Under the pieces are notes generated by a model. The model saw nothing but the letters and a program-made list of their open reading frames with translations. It did not search any database and was not told the DNA's origin. Position numbers and translations under genes: made by a program. A stretch of 64,000 nt of DNA from Cheilinus undulatus (taxonomy: Eukaryota; Chordata; Actinopteri; Labriformes; Labridae). The first letter of the stretch is position 1. Each line of letters begins with the position of its first letter. Where the stretch lies: contig NC_054878.1 in the NCBI RefSeq assembly GCF_018320785.1, positions 43,189,023 through 43,253,022 of the forward strand, in the 5' to 3' direction. This document shows, piece by piece, positions 5,967-62,733 of this stretch.

Positions 5967-8900
5967 TTAGTTTATGGTAGCATAGAGGCTGCTGTGATCA
6001 GCAGCAGAGGAAGATTTCACCATGCTGTATGTCACTGCGTCATCACCACCTCGGATCTAAAGGAAATGAAAGAGGATATTTAAAAATATATATATACACA
6101 TATAAAAAATAGAAGTGAAACCAAAAATACCATAATGAAATGTAAACCCACACAACCTACCCATGAAGACATTACAAAGAATCATCCTAATGTGAACAGA
6201 TCATATCAAACCACAGTAAACAAAGCACAACATTTTAAATTCCACTGTTGATACAAGGATGGTTCATTATTAAATATTTTTGGGGTTCAAGGTTTTTCTT
6301 TGTTTGTTTGTTTTTTTGTCTGTTTAGAAATATAAAAGATATATCGTCACCCCAACTCCCAAAAAATTCAGGTGTGTAAATGAAAAAATAAACAATGCAA
6401 TGGTTTTCAAATCCCCTAAACTCATATACTTTATTCACAATAGAACAGGAGTCATCAAGTACATTTGCACAAGTGCCAGATTTAGTCTCGACAGGAACTC
6501 TGGGGGCCGTACTTTCACATGAACAAGAGTTAAATCAATATTTTGGTCTGACTGAAATATTATTGTAGTAGTATTTGTATTTTCTTTCAAAATGCGGGGT
6601 ATTTTTAGTCATTACCAGTGAGATCTATCCCTATTATCTATAATGCAGCAGGCCAAAAGGAGACAGGCCTGACAACAGGACTGGCTGGGCCCCTGAAAAT
6701 CCCAGAGAATGGGCCCTCCACAATTGTGATTTAGCACCAAATTTAACCCATTCCTCACACTTTTGACCACTTTTTGATACTTTTTTCATCTTTAACCAAA
6801 TGTTTTTGCAAGATTTTAACCCCTTTTGAACCACTTTTCCTGCATGTTTTATCCCTTTTGTGCCATTTGTATCCATTTTTGCCACTTTTCTTCTATTTTT
6901 GCCACTTTTAACCCCTTTTCATGACATTTTTTCAACAATTTTTACAACTTTAAAAACAATTTTTGCCACTTTTAACCCACTCTTGGTACTTTTTGACTCT
7001 TTAACCAACATTTTGCCATTATTTAACCCATTTAAACCATTTTCCTGCATGTTTTATCCCCTTTGTGCCACTCTTTTAACCATATTTGCCACTTGTCATC
7101 AATTTTTGCCATGTTTTTGACCCCTTTTCACTTTTTTGCACTATTTTGTTGCCATTTTTAACCAATTTTTGATACCTTTTGCCCCTTTTTTGCTCCCTTG
7201 CATTTTTTTTTCCAAATTTTAACATCTATTCACAACTTTTTCTGCAAATTTTTGTCCCTTTGTGCCACTCCACAACCCATTGTGCAACTTATCACCCATT
7301 TTTGCTACTCTCTAACCTCTTTTCACCACTTTATCTGGCCGTTGTTGCAGCACTTCTGCCAACCTTAACCCCTTTTGAAATATCTACTGATTATGACAGT
7401 AAATTTCAGTAAAAACAGATCAAATATTAAGTCATTCTAAAACTATTTCAGTATTAATTGTTTGTGGGATGGATTTAACAGCTGCAGACATTTCTGAATT
7501 TAATGATCTTTCGAGGGCCGGACAGGAAGCTTTAGGGGGCCGCCAGTTGATGATCAGTGCAATAGAACATAGAAAACACATCTCATGTTGAAACTGAGAT
7601 ATTTTACAACAGGTCAGAGGATCATTTTAGAGAGATAGAGTCAATCAGCAGTAAATATGGGCAGAGGTTCACCAATCTAATCAAAAACTGCTTCTATAAA
7701 ATGTGGACCAAATTCAGAAAAATTTCCCCAACATACAATTGAGTAGAATATCCCACCACCTACAGTCCATAATATCATCAAAAGATTCAGGGAATCTGGA
7801 GAAATCCCTGTGTGCAAAGGACAAGGCTGAGGGTCAATATTGGAGGCTAGTGATCTTCGGGCTTTCAGGGGTCATTGCATTGAAAACTGGAATGATTCTG
7901 TGTTGGAAATCACTACATGGGCTCAGGAATTCTTCCAGAATTCATTGTCTGTGAACACAGTTGGCTGTATCATCCACAAGTGACAGTTAAAGCTGTATTG
8001 TTTGGCGAGGAAACCATATGTAAACATGGTCCAGAAATAATGCTGACCTCTCTGAGCCAAAACTCATTTAAAATGGACTGAGGCAAATTGGAAAACTGTT
8101 CTGTGGTCAGATTAATCAAAATTTTAAATTCTTTTTCAGAAACCACAGACACTGTGTCCTGAGGACTAAAGAGGAGAGGGACCATCCAGCTTGTTATCAG
8201 TGCACAGTTCAAAAGCCTTCTTCTCTGATGGTATGTGGCTGCATTAGTGGCGTGGGCAGGGTACACATCTGGAAAGGAACTATCAATACTGAAAGGTAGA
8301 TAGCTCACATCCAGACAATGTCTCTTTCATGGAAAGACTTGCATATTTCAGCTACACAACGCTTAACCACATACCACATCCATTACAAGAGCATGGCTTC
8401 ACAGTATAAGAGTCTGGGTGCTAAACTGGCCTGCCTGCAGTCCAGACCTTTCACCAGCAGAAAACATTTGCATCAGAAAAGAAAATCACCACCAAGAAGA
8501 TTCAGGACTGTTTAGCAGCTAGAATCCTATATCAGACAAGAATGTCTCCAAAACCCCACCAACTGATAGATCCAGCAACTGGTCTCCTCACCTCCCAAAT
8601 GATTCCAGACTTTTAAAAGAAGAAGGAATGCTGCACAATAGTATTAATCGCCCTGTCCCTACTTTTTTAAGCTATTATTTTTCATGAAATGGTAAAATGT
8701 GTCAGTTTTAACATCTGGTATATTATGTTCTATTGTGAATAAAATATGGGTTTATGGGGTTTAAAAATATATATATTTTTTTAATTTACATTTTACAAAT
8801 TGCCCCAGTTTTAAAACTAATCAATGGACATCTTACCTTAGTTGTACTGTCGGTCTTTTTGGTGTGGCTGATTGACGCGTACGAAATACCATCTTCAGTT

Positions 8901-11900
8901 TCAGCCTACAATGAAAGACAAGAATCTGTGGATTTCTACGAATTCTGATTTCTTTTCCTCTGCACAAGTGATCGCCAGGGCTGGAAGCATTATGCTGTTT
9001 GGTTTTCCATCTGTCTTCTTGTGAGCGCATGTTTCAAGAGCAATGTACAGATGACATTTTGGAGGCCACAGGTCAAAGGTCAAGGTTGCTAGACCTCATG
9101 GGAGCACAAAATCTCAAGAACATGTTGGATGATTCTCTTCAAACCTTGCTTAAATGCCCACTCCGACTAAAAAATAAACTGAATGCAACCCAGTGATTCT
9201 TCTCAACCTACTAATTTACTTTTATTTTCTGATAATTGTAGGGAAGCATCTAACCAGCAACAGCTGGGGCTCAGCAGGTATAGCTGACCATCTCTCAACT
9301 GTCAAGGGTTTGATCTCCTTCTCCTTAAGTTACATATTTATGTGACACTTAACCTCTAATGTCTTTCCCTGCTGTGCCAAAGGTCTGAATCTGCATGGAT
9401 GAGTATGGATGGGGTTGGTTAATACTGATGGCTACTCTATGTAGCACCATCAGTGTTTAAAAGTAAAGAGACTGGGTGAATGGGTACATGTGATTTCTTT
9501 AAAGTCCTGTTGATCAGTGCTTATTACACCGCGTTCCACATTATTATGCAAATGATATTTTTCTCTGATTTTCCTAAATATTAATGCAAATGACAGTCAG
9601 AATATTTTTCAAGTCATCAGCCATTAGAGCATAATTCAAATGTTTTTGAACAAACTTCATAATGACAAAAATATTTTTTTTTTAAATAAAAACCTCAAAA
9701 TGCACTGTTCCACACTATTAAGCACAACAGCTTTTTAAAACATTTTATAGGTTGTAAAGAACTGAAAATGGTCATATGTAGAAATTGCAGCATCAGGGGG
9801 TCATATTTACTGAAATCAAATCTATTTCAATCAAAAACATCTTAACAGGCCAAGTTCCATGTCAACATAGGAGCCCTTCTTTGATATCACCTTCACTATT
9901 CTTGCATCCATTAAACTTATGAGTTTTTGGAGAGTTTCTGCTTGAATTTCTTTGCAGGATGTCAGAATATCCTCCCAGAGCTGCTGTTTTGATGTGAACT
10001 CCCTCCCACCCTCATAGATCTTTAGCTTGAGGATGCTCCAAAGGTTCTCAATAGGTTGAGGTCAGGGGAGGATGGGGGCCACACCATAAGTTTCTCTCCT
10101 TTTATGCCCATAGCAGCCAATGACACAGAGGGATTCTTTGCAGCATGAGATGCTGCATTGTCATGCATGAAGAAAATTTTGCTACAAAGGCACAATTCTC
10201 TTTTTGTACCATGGAAAAAAGTGGTCAGTCAGAAACTCTATATACTTTGTCTAGGTCATTTTCACACCTTCAGAGACCCTAAAGGGGCCTATCAGCTCTC
10301 TCCTCATGATTCCGGCCCAATCATGACTCCGCCCCCTCCTTGTTGACGTCCCGGCCTCATTGGGACATGGTGGCCATCCACCAACCATTCACTACTCCTC
10401 CATCTGGACCATCCAGGGTTGCACAGCACTCATCAGTAAACAAGACTGTTTGAAAATGAGTCTTCATGTATTTCTGGGCCCACTGCAACCGTTTCTGCTT
10501 GTGAGCATTGGTTAGGGGTGGCTGAATAGTAGGTTTATGCACGACTGCAAGCCTCTGGAGGATCCTACACCTTGAGGTTGGTGGGACTCCAGAGGCACCA
10601 GCAGCTTCAAATACCTGTTTGCTGCTTTGTAATGGTATTTTAGCATCTGCTCTCTTAATCTGATGTATTTGTCCGTCAGAAACCTTCCTCATTATGCCTT
10701 TATCTGCACAAACCCGTCTGTGCTCTGAATCAGCCACAGATTTCTTCACAGTATGATGATCATGCTTAATTTTTCCTGAAATATCAAATGTTTTCATTCC
10801 TTGTCCAAGGCATTACACTATTTGACACTTTTTGGCAGCAGAGATCCTTTTTCTTTCCCATATTGCTGAAACCTGTGGCCTGCTTAATAATGTGGAACAT
10901 GTTGAAAAGAGCATTTTGAGGATTTTATTTTTAAAAAATAATAGTTATCATTATGAAGTTTGTTCAAAAACATTTGAATTATACTCTAACTGCTGATGAC
11001 TTGAAAAATATTCTGACTGTCATTTGCGTTGATATTTAGGAAATCAGAGAAAAACGTTGTTTGCATAATAATGTGGAACGCAGTGTAATAGGCTTTGAAA
11101 ATAATATTTGGAATCATTGTTGTGATTTCTGATGAGTGACTTGTTCAATTCTTTCTGTGGTGTGTTTAAATTCATGCTTGGTTTCCTCTATCAATAATTA
11201 TTCCATCCACTCAACACTGGTTTGCTGTAAAGAAATTGCTGTATTTATAAATGTCTTTCTCTTTTTTAAAAACTCACCACGTTTTCATCCGTCCGGGTTC
11301 TCTTCCCTTAAAAAACAGAAGAACAGAGAAACAGAAACCAAGAGTTTTTTTTTTTTCACCTTCAATAAAGAGAAGTCAGATTGATCCAAGCATATTTCTG
11401 GAAAAACTCTGCTGTTGCTCTTACTTTTGTTTCTCCTTTGTCTTATTAGTACCACAGCAGTTATCAAGAGTGCTGCTAAACCCAGAGGCACAACCATGTA
11501 CAACCACCACGGGACTGAAAAAAAAAAGAGATAGAAAACATTATTGGCTGCAGATTTAAGGTCCTTAAAGAAAGAAAGCTATCCATACAGACAGTTCAAC
11601 CATTAATGACATGCACTTCAGTAGGGTCCCTCAGACTAGGCTGAACTGTTAAAAACATCCATTTGTACCCATGTTCAATAAATTTCTGAATTTGTTTTAC
11701 TATGAAACGTTTTTTAGTCTGTTTTGTTTGCAGTGTGGTTGTTTCAGGAATTTAACTTCCAGATTTTGTTGGTGAATAAAGTTGAATTTCCCCTGTAAGT
11801 CCCTCATTGACCTCTGACAGAACTTCCTGGACTCAGACTTGAGAGCCTTAAAATAAACAGTATGATAAATCCCAGTCTTATGAACACAGAGGCTTTATGT

Positions 11901-14900
11901 GTAAAAAATTAAATGCTTCAAAAATGTTCAAAAGTGCGTACATTTGGGCCAACACTGTTTTGTGGCCCATTTTTACCAAAAACTTGCTAAATTCTATGGA
12001 GAAACTGTACTTATAAGTTACACTGCATGGCCTAGCTTCTAGGCTAGTACAGCCAGCGAGTCATTCTTAAAGGAGCAGTGCTCACTGAAATCACTGGAGG
12101 CTAATGCCACTTGTACAGCTAGGTACCCCATACAGCCTAACTTCAAAAGTACTGAAATATCCCTTAAAGAAGCAATGTTGAACTTATTTTACATGACTGT
12201 GACTGCAGGAAGATGCTACTGTGAGTAGCATCCAGCCACTGCCCTGCTAAACTAGCTTGATTATGGTGCACCTGAGGGAATGGTTCCCAGTGTTGTTTCC
12301 TTGGAACTCCTGAGTTCTTAAGATGAGCCAAAAGAGATGAAAAGCGTGTGGTTAATGTCATTTAATCAATGATTAAAGCATCAGTGCTGACAGCTCCTCC
12401 ACTGTAAATGTTTGTTTGTTTGTTGGATTTAGCTGGTCCCGTATTTTGCTGTAGACACCAACAAACAAAAAGAGACATAAACAAAGGCTAATGACCTATG
12501 AATCAAATGCTGACATACCTTTTTGCTCTGTTTCTGGTGTTTCAATGTTTCCAGGTGGTGTTTTTCCCACCTCTGAATCCATAAATACAGTTTGTTAATT
12601 TTTACATGAGGACAACATGATGTTAAACAGCTAAACAGTACCTTACTCAGTGTTCTTACCTGAGGGTTGGTGATTCAAGGTGAACTGCGCACTTCTGTAA
12701 CTGTTGTTCTCCTTTATTTTACATGTCAACAGCTCATAATTCTTTGAAGTGTAAATAAAGTGAGAAGTCTTAAAGGTCAGTATGACCACGCAGCGAAGTT
12801 TTTGTTCATTTAAGTCTCTATTATCTTCATCCACAGCCCGTGCAGCATACAGCCACTCCATGGTGTGTTCACATGTATTTCTGGTTGACAATCTGCATTT
12901 TACCATCATGTTATCACCATCCTTTTCAACAGTCACTGGTGAAGAGGGAGAAAATGTTAGGGACAGACATTAAGAGTAGCACAGACTTCTTTACCACCAT
13001 GATTGTAGCATATATTGTGTGGTTAACTCACTGGTAACAACAGACACATCAACCACAGCCTGTTTTTCTCTGTTTACTTCCTGAATGCAGAAGTACCGGC
13101 CCACATCCTCTGTTGTGGCGTTCTTTACAACCAGAGAGCAGTTTGCTGTGACTCGTAGTCGGTCTGATTTTTTGTTTGTGCGCTCTGTGACCTGTCCACC
13201 ATCGACTAGGTCAACTGCTGCCATCTTAGCCTGCTTACTGAAGCTCCATGTTGTTCTGGCACAGTTATGGTGACCATTGATGGCATTTTCACAGGGCAGA
13301 GTGACCTCAGCTCCATCTCTGACAATCAAGGAGAGAGAATGTGTAGTTTCAGCTGTAAAAGACAACAGAACAGGGGTTATTTTAAGGATTCAGGTGCCTT
13401 TATCAACATGAATTTTAACACTTTTCAAGAGGTTTTTCCAAGCTTTTACTTCCTCTTACAGCTGTGGTAAATTCTGCATTTACAAAAATACAAATATACT
13501 AGAAAAGATTATTTCACTTCTCTGCAGACCTGCCAACAGAACCCTAGCTGGCCAGGCACTGGAAATCCCAGAGAATGTGCCATACCCAGTAGTGATTTAT
13601 TGATGAAATCAATGCATGTTTGTTGGATCAGTTGCTTGGTTTTAGCATACATCCTCATTATTACTTATTTAATGGTGCTATACATAACATGGACTTTTTT
13701 AAGCCCAGCACCTGTGCACAATGTCAGTATGAAGACTCTGAATAACTTATTTTCCCCATTTTTGGCACTTTCTTGAGACTTTTAAACCATTACTGCAAAT
13801 TTTTAATTACTTTTCACAACTATTTCTGTCAACAGATGCTCCCTGGGTTACACTGTAAAAAAAATTCCGTTAAATTTACGGTAAAACGCTGGCAGCTGTG
13901 GTTACCAGAGATTTACTGTAAAAATTACGGTGAGAATGTGTGAGAAAAAATGGTGTTTTCATTCTACAACTGTAAATATTACAGTTCAAACCTGTTTATT
14001 TTAACTGTAAATTTCTGTTAAAAAAATACAATATTGTAACCGTTTATACAAGGATGTGCTGTAAAAATAACAGTTATACTGTAACCATATTTACGGTAAT
14101 TTGCTGTACAACTTACTGTAATTTGATGTAGAAGTTACAGCTCTATTACAACATTTTCTACAGGGATTGGCTGTAAAAATAACGATAATGAAACAAACCT
14201 GTTTACGGTAAATTACTGTAAAAACACCAGAAATCCTGTAAACCTAAATACAATCTATCTCAGTAATAAAAACAGTAGACCCGTATAATGTTAAACGGTA
14301 TTTTATTATAACTACTTAAATTTTACAGTAAATTACTGGCAGCTGTGGTTACCAGAAATTTACTGTAAAAAATACAGTACAAAACATGAGAAATTACAGC
14401 TGATATTTGCAGATTTTACGGTAGTAGCAAAATACTGCCCAACTTTAAATTTTACAGTAAATTACTGGCAGCTGTGGTTACCAGAAATTTACTGTAAAAA
14501 ATACAGGACAAAACATGAGAAATTACAGCTGATGTTTGCAGATTTTACAGTAGTAGCTTAATACTGCCTTACTTTAAATTTTACGGTAAATTACCAGCAG
14601 CTGTGGTTGCCAGAAATTTACTGTAAAAATACAGTACAAAACATGTGAAATTTCAGTTAATTTGCTAGATTTTTGCAGTAGTGCCCTAATACTCCTACTT
14701 TTAACAAAAGATTCAAGCTCTCTGATAAACAATAAGAAACTCTGCAGTTATATGTTTGCAATAAAAAACCTTTCAACACATCTGATAACTTGTCTGTATA
14801 CTCACAAAGCAGTTTAGATCTTGGAAAAAAGCTTGTGTCCATATGTATGACAGGTAGTCCTTGGTGTAATGCATGAAGATGAAACAAAGTCACTTGCCCC

Positions 14901-17900
14901 TAAATGATTCAAGAGTAATGAGTCCAGTCTTCCACTTGGGAAGCTTCACATGGCCAAGAAACTTCATCTTCTTGAAGACTCGAGCACAGTTCATCAGGTG
15001 TTGTACTTTGGACTGGCTCCATCCTCTCTGCAGGAAGTACATATACAAAGCAAAGTTAGAGTGATTCAGTGCTTCAGTTTAATGCCTACACAGATGTAAA
15101 TTTGAGAAAACTAGGCTCTAATAAGCCATGCTTACAATCAGCACAACAGAATAAAATAAACAGTGTGTACAGTACATACAGATCGCTTCTATAATAGAAT
15201 ATGGTGAAGAAACGCAAATGTACACAAGTGCCAGCTATTAAGTCAGCAATCACCTAACAACAGCCAATTACTTTTTCCATTATTGATTATAATGAGACAG
15301 TTATGAATATTAATTGCAATTTGCTTTTCCTTTATAGTTTAGAGCTGTGGTGCCCAGGCTTGTATCCACTGAGCTCCCCCTCCTTCACATATCCAAGAAG
15401 ATATGGACCCACACAAAAAAGTGACATAGCTATTGCTGTAAAAACTAAACATAAATTTGAATTGATGTCATTATTTAAAGCAGTTTTAATTTTGGCAGAT
15501 ATTTTTAATTTTAGTCTTAGTTTTAGTCTTTAAGTGAAATGAATTTTAGTTTCAGTCACATTTTAGTAATTTCTGTCCATTTAGTTTTAGTCCATAAAAA
15601 GTCCTCACATTTTAGGTTTTACTTTTAGTCCAAGCATTTATTGTCTTACTGAAATCTGGTATCAAGCCATAGTGGGATGTTCTCTGCACCCTGCCAAACC
15701 TGGGGCCCCTTCTTTCTACAGCTGAGAGACAGAAGAGCTACAGCTGCATTGTTTTTTGACAGAATTACCCACAGTGGAGAGATATCATGGATTTTGAATG
15801 TCCGACGAAAACTACATTACATTCTAGTCAAAAACTAAACTTAGTTTTTGTCAGTTTTAGTCATCACAGATCTATTTTTGTTAGTCTTAGTCTAGTTTTT
15901 GTCATGGAAAACAAAGCTGTCGATGAACATTTTTAGTCATAGTTTTAGTCGACGAAATTAACACTGATTTAAAGCTACACACAATAGCCCAAACCACAAG
16001 TCTTAGCAAAAGACCTTGGTATGAACCATTCATAAGGGTTATATTGTGATTTTAGGTAGTTGAACCACAAGATAAATATTTGCAAACTATGCTCTTTATT
16101 TATATATTTACTTGTAAGACCACCCAAATAAATATAGAATTTGCTTTTACATGTAAATATAATATATAATTTTATATATAATTTCTATATAATTTCCCTT
16201 CGGGGATGAATAAAGTTATTATTGTATTGTATTAGGGTAAGCCTACCCATTAAGCCCAGGCACCATTTAAGCCCACTTGCGACTTTGAAGTCAATTTAAA
16301 AAAAAAAAAAAGAGGGGCCTGTCTTATGCTATACATTATTTTGTCCAATCACACAATTTCTTAATTATATGTCAGTTTTTGTTTGACACAATCACATTTG
16401 TAGATATTGAAAAAGGCCCGCCTACATTTGTGCAGTCTCAAGGAGGCTCAGATAAAGTCGCCTCAAAACTTTGGTGTTTTGGGACCCCTCAGAAAGAACC
16501 TCTTTTCAACCATTTTCAGCCACTGACTTGTTAAGTACATTCATATTAAGTAATTTGAGAGATTATTGATTTGTTTTTTTGTGTATAAACAGGTAGTTTT
16601 TTGTAATTTCTTACTATTTAGTTTTATGTGAAAAGATGAGTCATGCTAGCTAGCGTAGCGAGCTAATCACTAGTCAATACATGTAGCCCTACTGATAGAT
16701 ACACTGCTTAATGATTAAAAATGATAAGTACACAAACTAAGTGTTTTCTGATTCATTTTACATAAATCTTACATAAAACTTTGAACAAGAATTCCTTGAT
16801 AATTCAGAAAGTTTGGCAGAAGACGAATAACTGTGATGGCAAGTTCTGCAGCATATTTAGGCTACAGGCATTTCTTTAAACATTTGTTTAATTTTGGTGA
16901 GAACATATTATCTTCATTTCCCTGGTAGTCACTGTAGTACCATTTAAGCCCAGTGTGTTCCATTTAAGCCCATCTTATGTGTTTCAATAGAAAAAAATGA
17001 AATTTTGAGGTTTGATAGCTTTTCGCTGTAATCCTGTGTTGGATGTTGTTATACTAACTTCATTAACACGAGTACATCACAGATCACACACTGACCAGAA
17101 GAATTGTTATGTCAGTTAATTTTGCATAATCATTTGTTTATAGTGAGAAAAATGCCAACAAAAAAGAGGAATTACAGCAACTGTCCTAAAATCATCATTG
17201 TTACAGCCAAACATTAAATCCAAGTTCAATAAGATATTGTTGATTCACTGTAATGTCATTTAATACTTTTAAAAACAAACACATTTTTTTATTTTGTCAA
17301 TATTGAATCAAATTTTGTCAATATTAAATAAAATGTTCAATGAAATGTTAAATACTGAAGCCAATGAAAATTAGTTTTAGGCCTACTTAGTCATGTTTGT
17401 GGTGGTCCATTGTTACAAGCCAAACATTAAAGCCAAGTTCAAAAAATAAATTGTGTTTAACATGTATAACATGTTACTGAATTAATATATGTTTACTACT
17501 TGAAAAATGTAATAATTTTTTTAATTTCTGTCAATAAACGTGGTTGTGGGCTTATTTGGAACACACATGGGCTTAAATGGTACTTAGGTACCAATTAAGC
17601 CCATGCCAGACTTTTGACTTTATTCATAACATTTCTTTAATTTGTTCTCTAAAATATGCATAAGTAAATAAATATACCTTCAAATGAGGGATTAATCCTT
17701 CATTCTAACAAATGATCATGTTTATAAACCATCTTAGTATCTATGAAAAATACGTGAACTTAGATTTTGGTGGGCCTAATGGGTACACTTACCCTAAATG
17801 CTTTGGGGTACAAAAGGATTTTGCTGTAACAAAGATGATGGGCGCTGAATTTTAAATCAATCATAATGAAAACATATGACTCACACAGAAAACTGTATTG

Positions 17901-20900
17901 GCCCCCATATGGTGTGATCATCAGAACACTGAGAACAAGCTGGACAAAGCAGTGGCATGGCAGTATTCTGGGTATTTCTACATGACCAGATTAATGCAGT
18001 GCTTGGTGTAAACTACATAAAATAAACATAAAATGGCTTCATGTTGTTTAAAGAAAGATTAATCTAAAGAATTTATTGAGGTATGTACAAATGCTGTGCA
18101 AGGCTTACCATTATTAATCCTTGATAACTGGCGTCTTTTTAGAAGAGTGGAATACCGGAGACAGTATAAAGTAATGGAGTCCTAGTCACCACTAGCAGAA
18201 GAAACAGGACCTTAAAAAAGAGTAAGGAAAAATAGAAAGACAAGGTAAAGCACCAAATCATGTCAACTTAGAAGTTTTGAACACTTATGTATGCACTGAT
18301 TGCAAAGTACTATCCAATTTTTGAATTCACTCAAAAAAGAGTGGACCCAATCTCTTCTTGTCTCGTGAGCTGAATGTCTTGTCACATCCCTTGTGTTTTG
18401 TGGCAGAAGCTACAGCAGACACAAAATGCAGACATACATGCAGAGTGATCCAGCTGTTAAGCAGTTATCAGACGGGTGTTGCTGTGTTTATATGTTCTTC
18501 TAAAATCAACACTAAGCTGTGACTGGTGCTACCCTCTCCACTTGGAGTGTGTGTTGATCCCACAGCTCTGTAAGTCATCTTGCTTGCCCTTGCGCTTTTT
18601 CTGCTCACAACAGTTTTGGTTTAGAAAAAATGCTGCACATCTATTTCTTTTTTGTTTTTTAAATTTGAAAATTTGGATACTATCAAACCTAAAAATCTGA
18701 ACCAGAATCTTTATTGTCATTGTACACAAGTACAACGAAATTTTGCACAGTTCCATTCAGTGCAATTATTATTACCTCTGCCAAGGAGGTTATGTGATCG
18801 GCAGGGTTTGTTAGTTTGTTTGTTGGCAACATAACCCAAAAAGTTATGGATAGATTCTGATGAAATTTCCAGGAAATGTCAGAAATGGCAAAAGGAAGAA
18901 CTGATTTGATTTTGGGACTGATCCAGATCATTGTCTGGATCTAGGAATTTTTAAAGGACTCTTCACTATTGGGAGATAGGGCTAATGGCGGAGGTCTGCG
19001 CTCTCTGAGTGCTTTTCTAGTTTATTATTGCAACTGCTCTGGGATATGTGCTGTTTTTCAGTCTGTTAGTTTTGGCTCTTATTGTCCTGAACTGTCTTCC
19101 TCAGGATAGCAGTTGTTACAGGTGACAATAACACAGTTATAAAAATAACTGATATTGTATCATATGATGCACACGGCTGGAAGGAAATAAAACATTTTGC
19201 CAGCATTACACTATACCATATAACTACCTCTAAAGAGGAAAAATTATTACCTCTGTAGGAACTCCTGAGTGGATCCCAATGCTGGTCAATGCATAGCATG
19301 AGCTGCCTTGAAGCCTAGCAAGAGGCTCCTGGGAGGATGATAAAAGTAGAAAAGAATTACAAGCAAATCATCCATTACCATCCAAATGAGCCTTTAAAGT
19401 GTTTCTGAGATCCACTTACTACAAAAAACAATACATGGGGCAGGCTTTCCACTGGTACCCCATCTGGCAAGAATGTTTCAACAAGGCAAAAGAGGTTGTC
19501 TTCCTTTTTGTCGAAACAGGAGAGAAGCCCTTTATGTCCTCTGAGCAGCCCTCCAACTGTCCTCTCTGAATCTTGAGCTTTGTGGCATCCTGCAAAAATC
19601 AAGTGAGCTATTAAATCTTTAGTGCCATGACACTGACGTGCACATATCCCCATTGTGCATTTAGGAGGTGCTGGAGCCAACAGGTAGTGCCCAGGACCAC
19701 CACAGTCCACCACCACACTATCCCCCTTATTCCTGGGGCTGCTACTGCAAATGTGAATATGGGCGAAACTTCCGGTGCCAAAATGGAAGTAGGCTACATT
19801 AAATACATGTATTCTAGTACAGCAACTAACTATGGACGCTAACAAAGAACCACAGTTGTTTCAATAGGAATTCTTCTGGAATTTGTAAATATTTATATTT
19901 TTGTTATCACATGTTCACATTGTTTGTATTATAAGCTGTAGATAAGTAAATAAGGAGGATACCACATTATTCCTGGGGGTCTACTGTAGCTATGAATGGA
20001 AGTGGAACTTCCAGTACAGTAACAATAATAGCAAAAACATGATTTTTCCAAAGGCTTACTAAAGTGATTTAGTGTCCACAGTGGTTGTTCTGAAATAAAT
20101 AAATATTTGCTGTAATAAATACTGCTTCATTTTTGTTAAATCAATGAGCTGAAATGTTTTAATCATATTTTCTGTAATGCTCAGTACCTGTTGCTATGTT
20201 CATGGTACTAATACTATGACAAAGTTAAATATGTCTCTCACAACATGCTGTCCACTGTCTAAATGCATCGGGGATGTGATTCTTTTAGTATTAATTTACC
20301 ATTAAATCTTAATACAAAACTTGACATTTACCAAACTGAAGAGCTGGCAACTTGAGTCATGGATAATTTTATAAATATAATTCCCATATTTAAGAGGGAT
20401 TAGTTTGTAAAATGAGAATTTCAGCAACTCCACAAACTAGAAATGTATCTTTTCATACCGATATAAAGCTACTAAAGTTAGCTAAATATGCCCGTGTAGG
20501 TTATCTAAAGTAATGTCATCAATTTGAACTCTCCAGTAGAGGCTAGAGAAATAATAATAATATTATCCCGTCTGAGGTGAAGCAGTCTAAGTTTATGTAG
20601 TTTGGTATTAAAATTGCTTTAATAGTCACGTTTAGCATCTCGTTTCTATGCAAAGTCCCATTTAGATAGAACGGAGCGGAAGTTGCGTCCATATTCATGG
20701 AGGGGTAGGAATAAGCTGGAAAGCCTGCCTCAGGGGACTCTGAACACAGATATGAATATGACTCTGAACACAGATATGAATATGAATATGACTCTGAACA
20801 CAGATATGAATATGAATATGACTCTGAACACAGATATGAATATGAATATGACTCTGAACACAGATATGAATATGACTCTGAACACAGATATGAATGTGAC

Positions 20901-27310: not shown

Positions 27311-27402
27311 CTTCTTATTCTGTCATTCTTTTCCTTAGAGCTCTTCCGTTGTTACACTTCTCTATAAATGCAGTCCCTCATAGGAGTGAACTCTCTGAGT
27401 CT

Positions 27403-29552: not shown

Positions 29553-29698
29553 TAATATTACATTTCTAATTTTTAAAATAACAGTACAAATATCAGCCAG
29601 CTGCTGCCCTACTGCCCAAACCACACTGCTGTAAATGAGGTATAAAGGTTTAATAGAAGCGTCGTCTGCATATACAATATTACAGAGTGCAGATCTAA

Positions 29699-48700: not shown

Positions 48701-51162
48701 GCAACTGGGCCCAGACGCCGTCAAGGGCCCATGAAGGAAGAAAAAAAAAAGCAGCTGTCCGGAATTACCACAGGCCCCTGTTTTTGTGAATGGAATAGCT
48801 TGGGGCGGGTCGGTAAGGTAACGCTGAGTGGCTGGTATGAGAGGAGGAAATGATGATTTGTCCAATCACCTTGATACCTGTCAGTCATGATGAGTCGCGA
48901 TGATGTGACTTGACGCGAGTTGTTTCTCATTTCAGCAAGAAAAAAAGCAAGTAGGTGAAAGTTGACGAGAAAAGGTAGCATCATCATCATCTTTAGCAAG
49001 CCCAGACAAAAAATCGGCGTGCAAAAGAGGAAGGAAAGAAAGAAGCAGCTTGAGGGTAAAGCTAAATGACCAAATTAGACAAGTTTTTTACTCAGGCAGC
49101 CCAGGCAAAAGTTAGCGTCCCGCCGAGGCTAGCAGTAGCTTGCCAGCTAGCTCCATAGAAGTGCAGAGCGAGGACTTTGGACCTGAGTGGCGTCATAAAT
49201 GACTTTGCTGAGCGCAAGGCCCATAAGATGAGCTTCTAATGAGTGAGTACAGCTTTTCTTTGTTATGAAGGAGAATTAGTGAGTTTTAAATCTATGGCAA
49301 TGTACTTGTAACCTCATGTTGTGCACCTACTGTCTGTAATCCTATTTGCTCCAGGGCCTATCACCGTGATGTTACGCTACTGGTGATGAGAACACTCACT
49401 GCATTTTTCTGTTACTACAGACATCAGACTCAGAGGAGAGGATGCAGATTTACCTCTTTACTTCAAATTAACTACAGCAGCATGAGTGAGTTGTGTTCTG
49501 TTAACTACCTGGCTTCTCTTTAGTGTCAGAGTGAAACATACTGGTGACAGGGCTCTGTCTGAGCTGTTGTTTGTCACATATCACTGTGCCTCACTAGCAG
49601 AAGCATTGTTTTTCTTTTAGGGGGCACATCAGTGCAACACATGCATTTAAACTGGTGATAAAGGTGGTGTTTCAATAATCTGTTCTCTCCACCCACAGCC
49701 ATATAATTCATTCTGAAGTTCACATACTAGGCTCTATCATGAGAATGAGAGTAGGAGGTGATATTTTTACCTGGTGTTTTAGGGTCCGGAGGGGGAGTTT
49801 GGTCGCCTATGTTTCCTTCTTTCTCTGATGACGTATCTTCTTTTGATTCTATTATAGTTTAGATTGATAAAACCATTACTTGACTTTGAATTTGTGTTTT
49901 GACCTTTTGAGGTAATAAGTTTGACATTTTTATCTCAGATTTTGAGCCTTTAAATGAATCAATCTGACCTTTTTTTTTTCTCAAAATCATTTTTCATCAG
50001 TGCTATTTTTACCTGGTGTTTCGGGGTATGGTGGAGGAATGTTTCCTTCTGTCTCTGATGACCTGTCTCCATTTGATTCTTTTATGGTTTAGATTGATGA
50101 AACAGAAAAATATGCAATAATTAGAAAGCATGCAAAACAAGACTGAATTAGAAGAAGTAGAGCATACCTTAACTATGAAATGAATCAAAAAATTCAAGCA
50201 AAAATAAATCAAACACACTAACTGTACCTGATTTCTGACATGACTCAGAGATGGCGTCACACTGCAGAGTTTGTCTGCTCTTTTTATCCGTCACATTACA
50301 AAACAGCTGATCATAGTCTGACCTCTCAGCAGTAGTTGAAAATGCTACAGTGGCTGAGCAGGTATAATGTGTCACTGATATTTCATGATCATCCCCAGTA
50401 TAATACCACTGAATTGTGTGTTCACAGTCTCCATAACCGACCACATTACAGTAAAATCTTGAAGCGGAATCTGTGTCAACTGTAGAAGACATTGACAGAG
50501 AAAGAAGATGAGTTAAGGTTATTTCCACACTGTTAGTATGTTCTTTAAACAGTATGAACTGTTAAAAGAGTGAGCCAGAACTTACTGGTGATCATAGACA
50601 GAAACACAAAAGCGTCTGAAGCTTGTTCTCCTGGTGTGAACTGTCTGCAGGCGTAACGTCCAACATCCTCACGTGTGACATGTTTTATAACCAGAGAACA
50701 GTCCTCTTTAACACGTAGTCTCTCTGATTTAGCTTTAGCTATTTTATTACTTTTACTTATATTTCCATGTGTTATCAGCTCTTCTGCTGTTACACTTAAA
50801 CCAGAACTGTAAAGCCAGGAAGTAGAGTTACAGTTCAGTTGATTTTTGATCACATTCCCACAGGGTAAAGTGACGTCTTCTCCAACTCTGACAGTGATGG
50901 AGGCGGTATTATCTCCAGTTACAGCTGATGGAGCTGAAATAAAGACATGAAATCATACGAATGTGAGATTTGTTGAATGTTTTGAAAAGAAATTTAAATA
51001 ATTGTGGCAAACAGCAAAACGTCCCAATCAAATTGGCACCAGCAAACTTGTCCAACTTAAAACAATGTCAACCCTGTTAAAAACATCTGTCTTTTATCCA
51101 TGTATATGTGTATGCATATTCTTACCTGTAAGGAGAAGCAGCAGTATCCAGAATAAAAGCAT
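42750..51162 (-). CDS. Gene C: inhibitory two-Ig-domain receptor (DICP-like), 10 exons
   Basis: The longest paralog. Exons: 51162-51126 (signal, MLLFWILLLLLT), 50933-50586 (D1), 50479-50228 (D2), 50078-50013 and 49848-49771 (two similar stalk exons, starting ESNGDRSSE and ESKEDTSSE), 46239-46150 (membrane segment, DWLPFVVAAVG... then RRKKS), 46068-46040, 45854-45798, 45636-45568 and 42884-42750. Total 1161 bp (386 aa plus stop), every exon in phase. D1 has VTLPCGN, the extra Cys before STSWLY, EDCSLVIK and EDVGRYAC; D2 has CEHTIQWYY. The tail has VAYASI, VTYSTV and SLYATV, so three ITIM-type sites as in A and B. The two stalk exons and their flanking introns are tandem copies, so they could be spliced together or alternatively. 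The last introns hold a Tc1-like copy (43088-45530). Confidence 0.83.
43514..43976. mobile_element. hAT-like MITE with TTTTAGTC repeats, copy 3 (left end lost)
   Basis: Colinear with 3006-3548 and 15496-15966 and ends AGTTAACACTG. The first ~15 bp of the family are missing, so the target duplication cannot be read. Confidence 0.75.
44222..44940 (-). mobile_element. LINE reverse-transcriptase C-terminal fragment
   Basis: Minus strand reads YLPTLTYGHELW and SLRDKVKSSD, and further upstream the FADD-proximal part, as in the C-terminal region of fish non-LTR retrotransposon polymerases (YVPTLTYGHELWV-type motif). Broken by stops and frameshifts. Confidence 0.7.
46566..46590. repeat. Poly(A) run
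   Basis: About 25 A residues on the + strand within an intron of gene C; possibly the tail of an old retroposed copy. Confidence 0.7.
47495..47781. mobile_element. Short hAT-like element (intron of gene C)
   Basis: Ends CAATGCTTCCCAACC and, inverted, CATTGGTTCCTGACC; flanks GTCTAAGC and ATCCAAGC agree at six of eight positions. No coding sequence. Confidence 0.55.
47790..49770. other. Intron of gene C, mostly unassigned
   Basis: Large intron between the stalk and membrane exons. At 49067-49160 a short + strand frame (MTKLDKFFTQAAQAKVSVPP) looks like the start of a transposon-derived protein but stops after 31 codons. The rest is unassigned. Confidence 0.3.
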
Positions 51163-53479: not shown

Positions 53480-56400
53480 TCATTTAGTTCTTGCTTGGTG
53501 GATTCTGACAGGAGCGTCATGGCCTCCACAGTTCTCATAGATGACTGAACCAAAAGCTTCATCGTCCTGTACCTGTGGAGACAAAAACTATCGATTTAGA
53601 ATCTAGATTAAATTAATGGAAGTATTTCCTGTTGTTCTGCAGCAAATAAGACGTAAAATAAAGGTAGAAATGTATTTTAGTGGGTCCTAATTATGTAGTG
53701 ATTTTATAGTAATAAGTGGTAATTATCTAGTCATTTCCTCATGAATCAGGTTCAATTGCCAGGTAATAAGTCAACATCTTACCAAGTAATAAATGTAATA
53801 TTAAGGACGTATCTATCTAGTAGTAATTAGGGGTGTGACAAGACAAGATTTTACACTTTTTTTTTTTCAAAAAAATTTATGAGTGGAAAACATCCTTCGG
53901 ATGGCTGAAAGTCATAAGTGGGAAGCATTCAGGTTTATTCAAAAATATTTAAACTAACTCCTCTTGTACTGAATAAGCTATCAGTGCTTACACACAGTTT
54001 ATCTTGTCAAACTCTGACTCAAACTGTACAGTTTAATGTTCTTCAAATCAAACCTTTGATTTGAATAGTCTACCAAATCTTGATTTTACTACACTATACA
54101 CTCATTGCTACAATAATAATAATAATAAAATCATTTAGATTTTTGGAGGTGCACTTCAGGCTACTGCATAGGGGTCCGTGTTGACGCAGAGGGTTACATG
54201 TAGCTATGCAGTCGACGCGACGCAGAAGCATTAATCAGGCTTTAATGTTTGTGCGTTGGTGAGTGAGTGTGTGTCTCTGCTGTCAGATGACAAACAGGGC
54301 TCATTTACCTGGGGCTGGAACTTTGTTGTTTTTTGGAGCTAACAGTGGACTCTATGGAGCTCAGCCTAAGTTTGTTTTGCTACATTTACTGCCGCAGCCT
54401 GTTGCGCTACATGTTAAGCTTCTGACTGATGATAGCACAGCTAACAGCTGATGGATGTGTGACTGACAGACGGTGAGAAGAGAATGAGATGAAGCAGCGA
54501 CTGAATCTAAGTTACAAAATTACAGATAGTGGCACTATGAGTGAGTCTGAGAGCATACATGAACTCATGAAGGCTGCACAGGTTTCCAGCAGCAGCATTT
54601 CATCATTTCACACAGTTATGATGAACTTTTATGCATTGGTGGATCACATACGGCCCTCCAGTAGCGCACGCAGAGGAGGTCAGGGATCAGCTTTGTTTCT
54701 TCATTAGCTGGCAAACCAACAATCTTAAAGTGTCCAGGACATCTTTGTGATCTTTTTTTCTTCCAGTTAGGTTTTGTTTTCTGTCAGGAGAGCTGCTGCT
54801 CCTGGTGTCTGTGCAATATTGATCTCACGAGATGATTTTCACCTCGATAAGACATCTTGTGACTTTTTGAACTCATCACAGCCCCAGTAATAATGTATTA
54901 TTTTTAAGTAATTCCTTGTAATATGGAGGCAGTTCTTTAGTAATGAGGTGGTAGTTTACCCTAACTCTCGAACCCTTGGTATTTTACTGGAACATTTAAC
55001 CCTCTTAAACTAACCATTATAATATTGTGGTCATTCTGAGGTATTTAACCCTAACCTTAACCCAGTAACATTGTGGCAGTTCTCTGGTAATTCAGTGGTA
55101 TTTCATCAATAATTCATAGAGCTAGATGACGCTTTTTTGTATATAAGTTGCTTTATAATTTCCTGGTAATTTCTTTGGCCCTCTACATTAAAATGAGTCT
55201 TTCCTGAATATCCTTTCCGAATGTTTGAACTCACAGCATCAGGATCAATCTGGGTTTTGTTTCCTGTAAAGATAAAAGAGTTGGCATAAGTTTCAACAGT
55301 GTTGATCCACTTTATTGAATGATGCCACTATGAACATTTACATTTGGAGCTTTCTCACCTTTGATTCTGGTCCATATGCTGACAGTCACAACAGCTAGAA
55401 TGAGTGCTGCAAATCCCACAGACACAATGATAAACCTGAGCATGAGACCTGGATGATAAAACAAATACATAGAATCAAAAACAACAATGACTATTATTTT
55501 ACACCTTCAGCCTGGTGTCAGTTTGATGTTGGTACGTCACAGGAAAGAAGGAGCAACATGGGTGGAGCCGAGAAATCTGATTGGTTGCTCCAGTGGTCCC
55601 GCCAAAATTTTACTCTGAAAAGAGATTTAGATTTCTAGGATGATTTTAAAACAGCAAACCCTCTAGGATAAACAAAGGTATAAATAAACTAGGTGAAATA
55701 TTCCTTTAATTGATTCAGTCTCACCATATTTACACTTAGAGCTTTGAAAAATATGTCTACTTCATCTTGACAGTTGTTTGAGAAATCTTAGATACTTGCA
55801 TCATTTTTATGTCAATTAAAATAATTCCATTCCTGATGAAACACCAAGGTTGAAATAATCAGCAGTCTCTAGCAGGGGTGTCAAACTCAAGGCCTGGGGG
55901 ACAAATTCAGTCCACGGTCCAGTTAGACGCGACTTGCAAGATCACCATCCTATTCTTGATATGAGGTCTGCAGATTTCCTCCAGTATAAAAATGTAAACT
56001 GAACCTCAGTGATTTAAAATATCCTTGTTAAGTCATAAAAATGTGAAAAAGTAAAAGAGTCAAAATAATTGGATAAAAACTCAGGGATATGGGGAAAGAA
56101 ATTAATTTTCAATTTTGCAACTCACAATTATGACTGAAAATATGATTTTGACATTTTATTATATTTTTAGACCTACTGACCTTTTTAACTCCTAACTTTG
56201 ACCTTCAATCCCACAATTTTGACTCATACTTTGAAATTTTAACTCATATTTTGACCTTTTACAGTCATGATTTCAAATCTTATCTCTTATTTTGATCTTT
56301 AAAACTCATGATTTTGACTTTCTAGTTTACATATTTCCTTTTTAAAAACATGACTTGACTTTGACTTTTGCTTTTTGACCTTTTGAAGTAATAAGTTTCA

Positions 56401-58434
56401 CATTTTAAACTCAGATTTTGAGCCTTTAAACGCATCATTCTGACTTTTTTAAATCTCAAAATCTTTTTTCATCAGTGCTATTTTTACCTGGTGTTTCGGT
56501 GTATGGTGGAGGATTGTTTCCTTCTTTCTCTGATGACGTGTCTCCTTTTGATTCTTTTATGGTTTAGATTCATAAAACAGAAAAATATGCAATAATTAGA
56601 AAGCATGTCAAACAAGATGAAATGAATCAAAAAATTAAAGCAAAAATAAAAATAATAGACCAGCTGTACCTGATTTCTGACATGACCCAAAGATGGCGTC
56701 ACACTGCAGAGTTTGTCCACTCTTTTTATCCGTCACATTACAAACCAGCTGATCATACTCAGGTATCCCAGCATGAGTTGTAAATGTCACAATGGCTGAA
56801 CAGCTATAATGTATCACTGATATTTCATTATCATCCACAGTATAATACCACTGAATTGTGTGTTCACAGGGTCCATAACTGAACACGCTGCAGAAAATTC
56901 TGAAAGAGTCTACTGGGTCAGCTGTAGAAGATATTGGAAGAGAAAGAAGATGAGTTAATGTAATTTCCACACTGTTAGTATGTTCTTTAAACAGTATGAA
57001 CTGTGAAATCAATGAGTCAGAACTTACTGGTGATAACAGACAGAAACACAAGAGCGTCTGAATCTTGCTCTCCTGGTGTGAACTGTCTGCAGGTGTAACG
57101 TCCAACATCCTCACGTGTGACATGTTTTATAACCAGAGAACAGTCCTCTTTAACACGTAGTCTCTCTGATTTAGCTTCAGCTATTTTACTACTTATCTTT
57201 CCATGTGTTATCAGCTCTTCTGATGCTACATCAAAACGAGGACTGTAGATCCAGGAAGTAGAGTCACAGTTCTGCTGATTTTTGTTAACATTCCCACAGG
57301 GTAAAGTGACGTTTTCCCAAAATCCTACAGTGACGGAGGCGGTGTTATCTCCACTTACAGCTGATGGAGCTGAAATAGAGACATGAAAACATAAGAATGT
57401 GAGATTTGTTATTTTTTTTTTTTTAAAGGGATTTAAAATAACCCATTTACAGCTTTTTGCACATTTTTGCCTCTTCAGTTTTTCACTTTTAATCAACTTT
57501 TGCCACTTTTTGGCCATTTTGCCATTTTTATTTTGCACATATATACTATCTATGTTGTTTTCCACACTTGTTTCCCCACTTTTAACCCATTTTGAAGACT
57601 TTTGCCCATTTTTGCCATTTATTATTTTTCGAACATTATTAAATGTTTCGTGACTTTTTGCCCTTTCCCCCCCACTTCTAACCCACTTTTGCAGCTTGTT
57701 GCACATTTTTGTCTCTTTTTTCCACAGTTTTTGAGCCATTGTCAAAGGTTTTTGCCCATTTTTGCCACTTCCACCCCTCCATACTGCCCCCTACTGTTGA
57801 CAAGCAGTACTACCTCACATAAAAGTGCACTATGCTCATTATTTTCAATCTAATGATGTTCCTGGAGGAATCTACATGGTCTCTCTGACGTGATGAGTGT
57901 CACCACATGGGTTTGCTGATGTGTTAACACCCAGCAAGTTCCACATAGCCACGGTTGCGACACACACCAATGTGTGTAAGGGTGTGAGGGTGCTCCAGTT
58001 CTGCTTGCAGCCCTAAAATTATCATTAAAAAGGTAATTCTTGTTTAAGAAAAAGGGTTTACATTTTTAAAAAGCCTATTTTGTACCACAGCATAACTAAA
58101 TAAGAACAAATATTTTTGTTGCTTGATAATAGCAAACTTTCTCAGGTTATAAGTAAAATATGATTTTCACAGCTTAACTTTATGATGAACCATGATTTTG
58201 CTGACCTCCATGGGCCCCAGAGAGCTCTACCCTTTATCCTCCCCTATGGTTGGCCTTGAACGTATATATACATGCAAATCATCAACGAGCACCAAACTTG
58301 TCTGTCCAACTTAAATCAAGGTCAACACTGTTAATACTGATAAAAACATCTGTAAAATCTGTCTTTTATCAATGAATAAGTTTATGTTTATCCTTACCTG
58401 TACAGAGAAGCATCAGCATCCCAAATAAAATCAT
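53480..58434 (-). CDS. Gene D: ITIM-less, possibly activating two-Ig-domain receptor, 7 exons
   Basis: Exons: 58434-58398 (signal, MILFGMLMLLCT), 57369-57028 (D1), 56921-56670 (D2), 56553-56488 (stalk, ESKGDTSSE), 55448-55359 (membrane), 55263-55235 (GNKTQIDPDA) and 53572-53480 (last exon, 30 codons and stop). Total 909 bp (302 aa plus stop), all phases consistent. D1 and D2 are very close to those of gene C. The membrane exon reads GLMLRFIIVSVGF, placing an arginine at the outer end of the hydrophobic stretch where A-C have Pro, Trp or hydrophobic residues. Receptors that pair with the FcR gamma chain often carry a basic residue near this end; pairing here is an inference. The tail lacks all three ITIM-type sites of A-C. 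Its only tyrosine motif is VIYENC, which fails the ITIM consensus at +3 but contains YxN, a Grb2-type SH2 ligand pattern. The last exon is unrelated in sequence to the last exons of A-C. Confidence 0.8.
55868..55985 (+). mobile_element. hAT-type terminal fragment (intron of gene D)
   Basis: CAGGGGTGTCAAACTCAAGG is a typical hAT-type end. The opposite end could not be located. Confidence 0.4.
57440..57770. repeat. TTTTTGCCAC-type array in the first intron of gene D
   Basis: Irregular TTTTTGCCACTTTTAACCC-like units. The following sequence to about 58265 (CTACTGTTGACAAGCAG, ATGATGAACCATGATTTTGC, GGGCCCCAGAGAGCTC) matches parts of the 30410-31578 element and of the first intron of E. Confidence 0.7.
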
Positions 58435-58531: not shown

Positions 58532-60360
58532 AAACTCAAATGCTGAGCCTTTTGCCCACTTTTTGTGCTCTTCTAACTTTCTGAGAGAAGCTGTTTCTTC
58601 CAAACAGAGAAACTTTTCATCAAAATGTGGAGTTCTTCTACTAAAGTGGTCCTTATAGTTGACAGTCAGACTCCTCAGTGATCAGACTGACAGCTCAGAC
58701 TCCTGCTGTAGTCTGGTGAAACATGGGAGGAGCTGATATTGTTATTGGTGTGAGAATTGTTTGTTCCTCATCACAGTGGTTAACCATGTCTGAGTGCCTA
58801 TATCAGTGTTTCACAAACTTTTTTCCTGGTGACACTTTTTAGAAGGTAAAAGCCACCGTTACCCAACAACTTTCTTTCCCATTCATTATTTCTTGTCTGT
58901 ATTCTGTGTCGTCCACAGCTGATTGGTTAAGCTGGTGCTTGTTGATTCCAGACTCGATCTGGTCCTGACCTGATGCTTTCTATTTAATAAGACTTGAATA
59001 GGCCACTTTACCTCCTTCACATAGGTTTCATTTTAATGCTCGGCTTCTTGGGTCTTCAGCAGCTGTCTGGTCTGGAACAAGGAGTTTATTTATTCTTTAT
59101 TATCATCCAAACATCCATGACTGTCACTTTAGCTCTTTTTGGCTGGTAGAGTGGTTTCTGGCTTTATTATGGAGGAGAGGATGAGTGCACTGCAGAAATA
59201 AATATTGTAGCAAAGACATTCTGAAGACTCATTTGGTGACCCCACAAAAATCCCCCTGACCCACCTGTGGGTTCTGACCCAGGCTTTGGTAATGAGTGGT
59301 CTCTACTGCAGCTTCACCTCACCCTCCTCAGTCTGTCTTCATTTATATGGATTTGACTTCTTTACTGTTATTACATTTTGTAAGACAGGGGTAGACATCC
59401 TGATGTAAACAAAGCTGGAAGACCCACATGTAGACTGTAATTATTGATTAAACACAATGACAAAGAAGACAGAACCAAAAGTTCAGATTTTAAACAGCAG
59501 AAATGTTTAAATAAAGTCCATATCACAAGAAAAACTAAATATCCAAGCTGTGTCTCATTTCAGGGGCTGCATCCTTCAGGGGAGGTCTGAAACAAGACTG
59601 TCTGGTCAAGATGAGTCCCTGAAATTGTGTGTTCACAGTGTCCATGACTGAACACATTACAGTAAAATCTTAAAACAGAATCTGTGTCAACTGTAGAAGA
59701 TACTGGAAGAGAAAGAAGATGAGTTAATGTAATTTCCACATTGTTAGTATGTTCTTTAAATAGTATGAAGTGTGTCATCAGTGAGTCAAAACTTACTGCT
59801 GATCGTAGACAGAAACACAAAAGCGTCTGAAACATGTTTTCCTGATGTGAACTGTCTGCAGGTGTAACGTCCAACATCCTCACGTCTGACATGTTTTATA
59901 ACCAGAGAACAGTCCTCTTTAACACGTAGTCTCTCTGATTTAGCTTCAGCTATCTTACTACTACCTATATTTCCATGTGTTATCAGCTCTTCTGATGCTA
60001 CATTCAAAACAGAACTGTAAAGCCAAGATGTAGTGTAACAGTTCTGCTGATTTTTGATCACATTCCCACAGGGTAAAGTGACGTCTTCTCCAACTCTGAC
60101 AGTGATGGAGGTGGTGTTATCTCCAGTTACAGCTGATGGAGCTGAAATAGAGACATGAAAACATAAGAATGTGAGATTTGTTGAATGTTTTGAAAAGGGA
60201 TTAAAATAAAAACAAAACAACTGAAAAGTGGCCAATCATATCCAGGCCTGCTGATCAACCCAGAGAACAGGCCGTCAATGTATGTGTGTTAGATCAGTAG
60301 CATTAGTGCTAGCATACATTTACCTCATTTTGGAGCTGTAGTGTGTTTAACTATCACTGG

Positions 60361-62217: not shown

Positions 62218-62733
62218 CTCTACACATTAAGCAGGAAGTAACGTAACGCTGTGGTGCATTCCTTCATTAGTTCTGTCGCTGTTTTTACTGTAATTATTGT
62301 TAGGGGGGCTGAGGAACATTTTAGGGTGGCTTCAGCCCCCCAAAAATGAAATAATGACATCCCTGATTTTCACAGCTTAATTTTACAATGAACCATGATG
62401 TTGCTGACCTCCATGGGCCCCCAGTTTAGCTGGGCCCCAGACAGCTCTACCCTTTATCCTCCTCTATGGTTGGCCTTGATCATATAAACATGAAAATCAT
62501 CAACGAGCACCAAACTTGTCTGTCCAACTTCAATCAATGTCAACACTGTTAATACTGATAAAAACATCTGTAACATCTGTCCTTTATCAGTGAATAAGTT
62601 TATGTTTATCCTTACCTGTACAGAGAAGCATCAGCATCCCAAATCAAAGCATTTTAATCCTCCTGATCTGATGAATCTTGCCCCTCATTCTCAATCTCTA
62701 CTCTCAAAAAGTCAGATGGAGAGTTGTAGCTTT

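Follow-up and report, generated by a model that had tools for sequence, protein, structure and literature searches.

Inhibitory- and activating-type immunoglobulin receptor genes in a tandem cluster of Cheilinus undulatus and the similarity of their ectodomain cassettes

A stretch of 64,000 nucleotides from Cheilinus undulatus (contig NC_054878.1, here C14, positions 43189023-43253022; hereafter the window) was found to carry four complete immunoglobulin (Ig)-superfamily receptor genes (U2-U5) and one decayed unit (U1), all located on the minus strand and numbered from high to low window coordinates, in which all feature positions are given. The window probably belongs to an extensive gene cluster that encodes a family of type I paired Ig receptors, and ectodomain cassettes appear to have been copied from one kind of chassis, inhibitory or activating, to the other. 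This reading is based on the inhibitory genes U3, U4 and U5, each of which has a nearby close ectodomain relative on a chassis with a membrane arginine. The cluster alone would be no surprise to fish immunologists; of interest are the three pairs and the confinement of their similarity to a cassette. How fish innate lymphocytes match activating with inhibitory receptors is poorly known, and fish are not known to have KIR or LILR. Three pairs alike in the binding cassette, and not in the membrane exon, make ligand sharing directly testable, and likewise the continued movement of cassettes in this and related species. For annotation, the locus provides precise exon boundaries together with a last exon common to several activating-type genes.

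Matched pairs of inhibitory- and activating-type genes

The predicted proteins of U3, U4 and U5 each contain three motifs of the immunoreceptor tyrosine-based inhibitory motif (ITIM) type, defined by the pattern [SIVL]xYxx[ILV], while the U2 protein contains none and carries an arginine near the outer end of its membrane segment. Therefore, inhibitory and activating types lie side by side, as had been proposed in the initial annotation of this DNA. A charged membrane residue without an ITIM is the mark of activating receptors as applied to NITRs in excerpts of PMC2442602. The ITIM exons are absent from U2, which ends in a different last exon located 1.7 kb beyond the donor of tail exon 1 and common to three sister genes. 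The single tyrosine of this exon (VIYENC) is retained in locus L071, replaced by Phe in L070 and not kept in L072, and it was therefore not taken as a shared signalling motif. A read-through model of U2 (314 aa), which ran past the splice donor, was rejected because sister sequences no longer agree with U2 past the gtgagt donor of tail exon 1 (L069 and L071 part from it soon afterwards) and because the common last exon exists.

The partners of the three inhibitory genes are all located on C14. For U3 and the gene at 43.267 Mb, the core nucleotide identity amounts to 94.5% in the first Ig domain exon (D1) and 92.6% in the second domain exon (D2), and falls to 59.8% in the membrane exon; the corresponding values are 94.7%, 93.9% and 64.4% for U4 and the gene at 43.401 Mb, and 90.6%, 82.5% and 55.6% for U5 and the gene at 43.257 Mb. 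The introns within the cassettes take part in the identity of 87-90%. With its partner read over more than 1.4 kb on the upstream side and 4.6 kb on the downstream side, the U3 pair matches outside the cassette only in the second copy of the stalk (79.3%, reaching 49758), in a 58-nt piece of intron and in stretches of DNA upstream of U3. In the U4 pair no match was found in the 113 nt beyond the upstream border and the 390 nt beyond the downstream border, and the U5 partner was read only 48 nt past the upstream and 273 nt past the downstream border.

The membrane exons follow a different pattern. The U5 partner and U2 have membrane exons with 97.8% identity, although their D1 cores share only 58.2%. 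Within the group of activating-type genes around U2 the membrane exons are 98.9-100% identical and the D1 exons 88.7-93.8%. A comparison of U2 with the 43.267-Mb gene gives 96.5% identity over 836 nt around the membrane exon and 71.6 and 80.8% in the neighbouring stretches on the two flanks. Since these identities disagree between the same genes, the domain and membrane modules have different histories. Exchange of cassettes, by which paired receptors would be made or maintained, is indicated because the partners resemble the inhibitory genes in the cassette (87-90%) and not in the membrane exon (56-64%), and the simplest reading of these sequence comparisons is that gene conversion or unequal exchange would have caused the similarity of the pairs.

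The tails are under stronger constraint than the binding part: the ratio of nonsynonymous to synonymous substitution rates (dN/dS) was 0.34-0.44 for the ITIM exons among U3, U4 and U5, and among U2-U5 it reached 0.46-1.04 for D1 and 0.83-1.29 for D2. Positive selection on D1 or D2 is not claimed: among close paralogs the pooled ratio of nonsynonymous to synonymous differences (pN/pS) is 1.07 when six genes are compared in D1 and 0.88 when five are compared in D2.

The alternative would be plain tandem duplication and divergence without any exchange of cassettes, the pairs being ordinary sister genes with flanks disrupted by mobile elements. Dispersed repeats and mobile-element remnants are indeed frequent in the window, the partner pieces are short, and some borders were read over 48-113 nt only. 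However, the intron DNA within the cassettes shares 87-90% identity, yet the coding membrane exon falls to 56-64%, and genes with 58%-identical D1 exons have 97.8%-identical membrane exons. Plain duplication is therefore considered unlikely. Several points nevertheless weigh against the cassette reading. For the U4 and U5 pairs, the upstream end of the cassette was placed from 113 and 48 nt of partner sequence, and the membrane exons of these two partners were attributed to them from gene order and strand. The combination that marks paired receptors, namely ITIM-bearing and charged-membrane members with similar ectodomains, was found in three pairs, of which the U4 and U5 partners were read for D1-D2 and the membrane exon, their tails and thus their ITIM status lying outside the pieces read. 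Furthermore, the sole tyrosine of the U2 last exon is missing in two of the four genes with that exon, and dN/dS values near 1 may equally reflect relaxed constraint. With mobile-element remnants present, exchange is not fully separable from duplication combined with insertion-driven loss of flank homology.

Gene models and domain architecture

The genes U2-U5 are real and well formed. All 29 of their introns are bounded by GT..AG, the joined coding lengths are divisible by three without internal stops, and the intron phase is 1 as far as the membrane exon and then 0 in the tail (Table 1). The initial annotation had described a tandem cluster of four intact and one decayed gene on one strand, with open joined frames and with the same exon order and phases throughout. 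The models bear this out except for the exon order, which differs in each gene: U2 has the last exon described above, U3 has two stalk exons, the stalk of U4 lies within the D2 exon, and U5 is without one tail exon. The proteins align with each other over most of their length at 30-62% identity, as computed with the read-through model of U2 and with U5 lacking its signal exon. The cluster is not due to chance, because the proteins match mutually and the same design recurs elsewhere in the genome.

Table 1. Receptor genes, exons and ectodomain cassettes of the window (window coordinates)
Feature	Position	Strand	Basis or remark
U1 (decayed)	62652..about 59623	-	
U1 signal exon	62616..62652	-	sequence read; ATG CTT TGA (early stop)
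U1 D1 exon, open V-set	59797..60141	-	Pfam V-set E 8.9e-10
U1 D2 exon remnant	59623..59690	-	homology lost past about 22 codons
U2	58434..53480	-	302 aa, 909 nt splice-joined
U2 signal exon	58398..58434	-	gene model
U2 D1 exon, V-set	57028..57369	-	Pfam V-set E 7.9e-8, splice borders
U2 D2 exon	56670..56921	-	gene model, D2 profile
U2 stalk exon	56488..56553	-	78% aa identity to U3 stalk exon 1
U2 transmembrane exon	55359..55448	-	LMLRFIIVSVGFAALILAVV; Arg near outer end
U2 tail exon 1 (29 nt)	55235..55263	-	GNKTQIDPDA; identical up to gtgagt donor in L069, L070, L071
U2 last exon	53480..53572	-	VQDDEAFGSVIYENCGGHDAPVRIHQARTK, then stop; no ITIM; recurs in L070, L071, L072 with same kind of acceptor
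U3	51162..42750	-	386 aa, 1161 nt splice-joined
U3 signal exon	51126..51162	-	gene model
U3 D1 exon, V-set	50586..50933	-	Pfam V-set E 1.2e-8; AlphaFold2 model pLDDT 80.5
U3 D2 exon	50228..50479	-	gene model, D2 profile; model pLDDT 73
U3 stalk exon 1	50013..50078	-	gene model
U3 stalk exon 2	49771..49848	-	tandem copy of stalk 1, 76.7% over 116 nt to 50000-50103
U3 transmembrane exon	46150..46239	-	hydrophobic core without Arg
U3 cytoplasmic exons	46068-46040, 45854-45798, 45636-45568, 42884-42750	-	motifs VAYASI, VTYSTV, SLYATV
U3 cassette (D1, D2, stalk 1)	49868..50998	-	90.4% nt identity to 43.267-Mb gene
U4	38985..29699	-	334 aa, 1005 nt splice-joined
U4 signal exon	38949..38985	-	gene model
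U4 D1 exon, V-set	38534..38845	-	Pfam V-set E 1.8e-8
U4 D2 plus stalk exon	38147..38434	-	gene model, D2 profile
U4 transmembrane exon	35879..35965	-	
U4 cytoplasmic exons	35792-35764, 35556-35500, 35306-35232, 29818-29699	-	motifs VAYVSV, VTYSTV, SLYATV
U4 cassette	38142..38873	-	88.7% nt identity to 43.401-Mb gene; borders 28 nt upstream of D1 and 5 nt downstream of D2
U5	27310..5967	-	329 aa, 990 nt splice-joined
U5 signal exon, predicted	27250..27310	-	MVEQRQFQVVLLMILVLQIT; best in donor and hydrophobicity scan of 13353-29600; joins in frame
U5 D1 exon, V-set	13032..13352	-	Pfam V-set E 5e-7
U5 D2 exon	12660..12935	-	gene model, D2 profile
U5 stalk exon	12519..12572	-	gene model
U5 transmembrane exon	11425..11514	-	
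U5 cytoplasmic exons	11306-11278, 8905-8837, 6056-5967	-	motifs ISYASI, VTYSMV, SLYATI
U5 cassette	12514..13393	-	87.3% nt identity to 43.257-Mb gene; borders 41 nt upstream of D1 and 5 nt downstream of stalk exon

The unit U1 was classified as decayed because its signal exon contains an early stop and its D2 homology is lost after about 22 codons. This signal exon sits in a 643-nt stretch that is 88.5% identical to the signal region of U2, and the D1 core of U1 shares 92.6% nucleotide identity with U3 D1. The homology to D2 of U2 and U3 stops at 59623, and the D2 profile covers the first half of the domain only (E 1.2e-4). The signal exon of U5 was predicted 13.9 kb upstream of D1 by the splice and hydrophobicity scan only; a narrower scan, to 20.6 kb, had given nothing convincing. 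The two stalk exons of U3 represent an exon duplication (49758-50103; about 77% over 116 nt).

In each of the five units Pfam assigned D1 to the V-set, with E values from 5e-7 to 8.9e-10. In U3 D1 the cysteines are located at positions 24, 34, 78 and 95, and a four-cysteine layout (C-C-W-CSL-YxC) is present in 53 of the 55 family D1 exons examined, the exceptions being L061 and L062, which are without the first cysteine. In a profile search against PDB, D1 resembled many Ig domains, with Robo, CEACAM, JAML, TIM-3 and pIgR among the best 60 matches. D2 did not reach a Pfam cut-off in any unit, and the corresponding PDB profile search gave nothing clear (best E 0.0041, to a nanobody). A structure model of D2 computed from four sequences was all-beta and of modest confidence (mean predicted local distance difference test score (pLDDT) 73, predicted template modelling score (pTM) 0.58); judging by this model, D2 is likely an Ig domain.

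Apart from the receptor genes, the window contains probable mobile-element remnants at 3553-3891 (+), 10357-10812 (-) and 25390-25728 (-), which matched, in the same order, DDE_3, a Tc3-type transposase (below the Pfam cut-off) and a Myb/SANT-like domain. A 24-nt tandem repeat with 22 copies, open in several frames, is located at 20736-21296. For the window, Rfam gave no match at the gathering score, and the tRNA search gave none.

Extent of the cluster in the genome

The genome (1.17 Gb, 46 contigs) was searched with individual exons. The U3 D1 exon gave 94 matches, of which 92 are located on C14 at 42.397-43.886 Mb, one on C12 and one on C5; the 92 matches on C14 correspond to 90 exons, two being second pieces of split exons. 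The window thus covers about 4% of a 1.5-Mb cluster. The U3 D2 exon gave 18 genome matches, and the order D1-D2 recurs at 42.36-42.56 Mb of C14. A tree was built from 55 D1 exons. It unites the twelve exons read at 43.54-43.89 Mb in a single clade (100/97) and places U4 and U5 each with other neighbours, not together; many of its forks are unresolved.

The membrane exon of U2 gave 35 matches, 34 of them inside the cluster and one on C12 beside the D1 exon there, and the membrane arginine was present in all 27 that were inspected. By order and strand, 27 of the 90 C14 D1 exons are followed downstream by such an exon at a distance of at most 10 kb, and the arginine was read directly in 22 of these 27 genes, U2 included; a further assignment of a membrane exon to a D1 exon 643 kb apart was discarded. 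ITIM tails were found less often. With the U3 last exon as query, the matches with an E value of 0.01 or better numbered four in the genome, namely U3, U4 and two others, of which one contains a stop; the U5 last exon found only itself in a search so insensitive that it missed U3 and U4, and a profile scan of 200 kb on C14 added one more ITIM tail. Because the ITIM-tail searches are insensitive, an excess of activating over inhibitory genes in the cluster is treated as a lead.

Several loci around these genes deserve mention. A second D1 group with 38 D1 matches occupies C14:43.52-43.89 Mb (L049-L060); the D2 profile found no match in its 12 read loci, a different second domain seems to follow D1 in L049, L050, L053 and L057 (ECSLLRY...LRWV in L050), and two genes of the group (L080, L081) seem to carry the arginine membrane exon. 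At C14:43.284-43.307 Mb four membrane-exon matches, two of which (L074, L075) were seen to encode the arginine, have no D1 match nearby and are probably decayed genes or belong to missed D1 exons. A lone D1-D2 at C12:43.842-43.844 Mb (L047), with a membrane-exon match of E 0.96, is a possible escaped copy from the cluster. Finally, the open frames at C14:42.5257-42.5322 Mb (L025, L026), which presumably resemble parts of a CRIP-type LIM protein, lie between D1 groups and may serve as a synteny marker.

Proposed working and comparison with known receptor families

The receptors would be type I membrane Ig proteins, predicted to reach the cell surface and to act as paired receptors on leukocytes, with the V-type D1 and the Ig-like D2 binding the ligand. 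When phosphorylated, the tyrosine motifs of the inhibitory U3, U4 and U5 should recruit SHP-type phosphatases. The activating-type receptors, comprising U2 and the 21 other cluster D1 genes with a directly read arginine, should pair through this residue with an adaptor containing an immunoreceptor tyrosine-based activation motif (ITAM), for example DAP12 or FcR gamma. Cassettes of D1 and D2, optionally with the stalk, would be copied between inhibitory and activating chassis by gene conversion or unequal exchange, and as a consequence of this copying each inhibitory gene of the window would be matched by an activating-type gene whose binding face is similar and whose ligand is perhaps the same. 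A broader proposal, which we hold with close to even confidence, is that the ectodomain cassette is the recombination unit of the whole 1.5-Mb cluster, so that cassettes pass in both directions between a small number of ITIM chassis and a widespread arginine chassis, and new activating receptors arise repeatedly against the ligands of inhibitory ones. If this is true, the locus would be an unusually activating-rich and self-renewing paired-receptor system.

DICPs are type I receptors with an Ig ectodomain that occur in inhibitory and activating forms and are clustered, and zebrafish DICPs are linked to major histocompatibility complex (MHC) class I. The present genes agree with this plan in their type I design, their two Ig domains and their ITIM-bearing and charged-membrane forms in tandem; the plan is not specific to DICPs, a two-Ig design being common to NITRs and other families as well, and D2 is taken for an Ig domain from a model of modest confidence. 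The MHC class I linkage was not seen: the scored candidates include 43 MHC_I exon matches, located on C16, C11 and C31 and none on C14. The likeness to DICPs described here concerns the plan of the genes. That the genes are true orthologs of the zebrafish and carp DICPs, and hence a percomorph version of that family, is put forward tentatively, at somewhat less than even weight. The same weight is given to a distinct, unnamed percomorph family that would be DICP-like in plan only. The four-cysteine layout of D1, which differs from the spacing in NILTs, the failure of D2 to match more than weakly in Pfam and PDB, and the missing MHC class I linkage speak for a separate family. A literature search matched none of five short motifs of these proteins, and no named counterpart of the cluster was recognized among the papers listed; the lack of a name is weak evidence, and the comparison was made without a fish receptor set. 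In the excerpts of the respective papers, dicp genes served as markers of natural killer (NK)-like cells in zebrafish (PMC5340972), and a gibel carp DICP was reported to recruit SHP1 through its ITIM (PMC8662705).

Medaka NITRs comprise 44 genes in 3 clusters and, according to excerpts of PMC2442602, resemble the present genes in the V-type first domain, the second Ig domain, the ITIMs, the charged membrane residue (Arg in some) of activating forms and the large clusters. However, the J-like motif FGxG occurs in only one of the 55 D1 exons here and is absent from the other 54. Moreover, medaka NITRs are mostly inhibitory with few activating forms (excerpts of PMC2442602), whereas arginine membrane exons are common here and outnumber the ITIM tails found, by an insensitive ITIM search. 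An identity with NITRs is therefore disfavoured and regarded as very improbable. Atlantic salmon NILTs likewise have V-type Ig domains, phase-1 introns with phase-0 ITIM exons and a tandem cluster with mobile elements, as far as the excerpted text of PMC3022915 goes. The same text gives their extra cysteines as CX3C, CX6C or CX7C, whereas the extra pair here is far apart (C34 and C78 in U3 D1); the NILT spacings are present in 5 and absent in 50 of the 55 D1 exons and occur in none of the five D1 domains of the window, and NILTs are disfavoured on this ground. A parallel for the pairing itself comes from Siglec-11/16 and Xenopus CEACAM, described in excerpts of PMC5701461 and PMC5112662 as opposing receptors whose ligand-binding exons are kept similar by gene conversion. 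These belong to other Ig families, whereas in Cheilinus undulatus three such pairs and a shared activating membrane module are found within one 1.5-Mb cluster.

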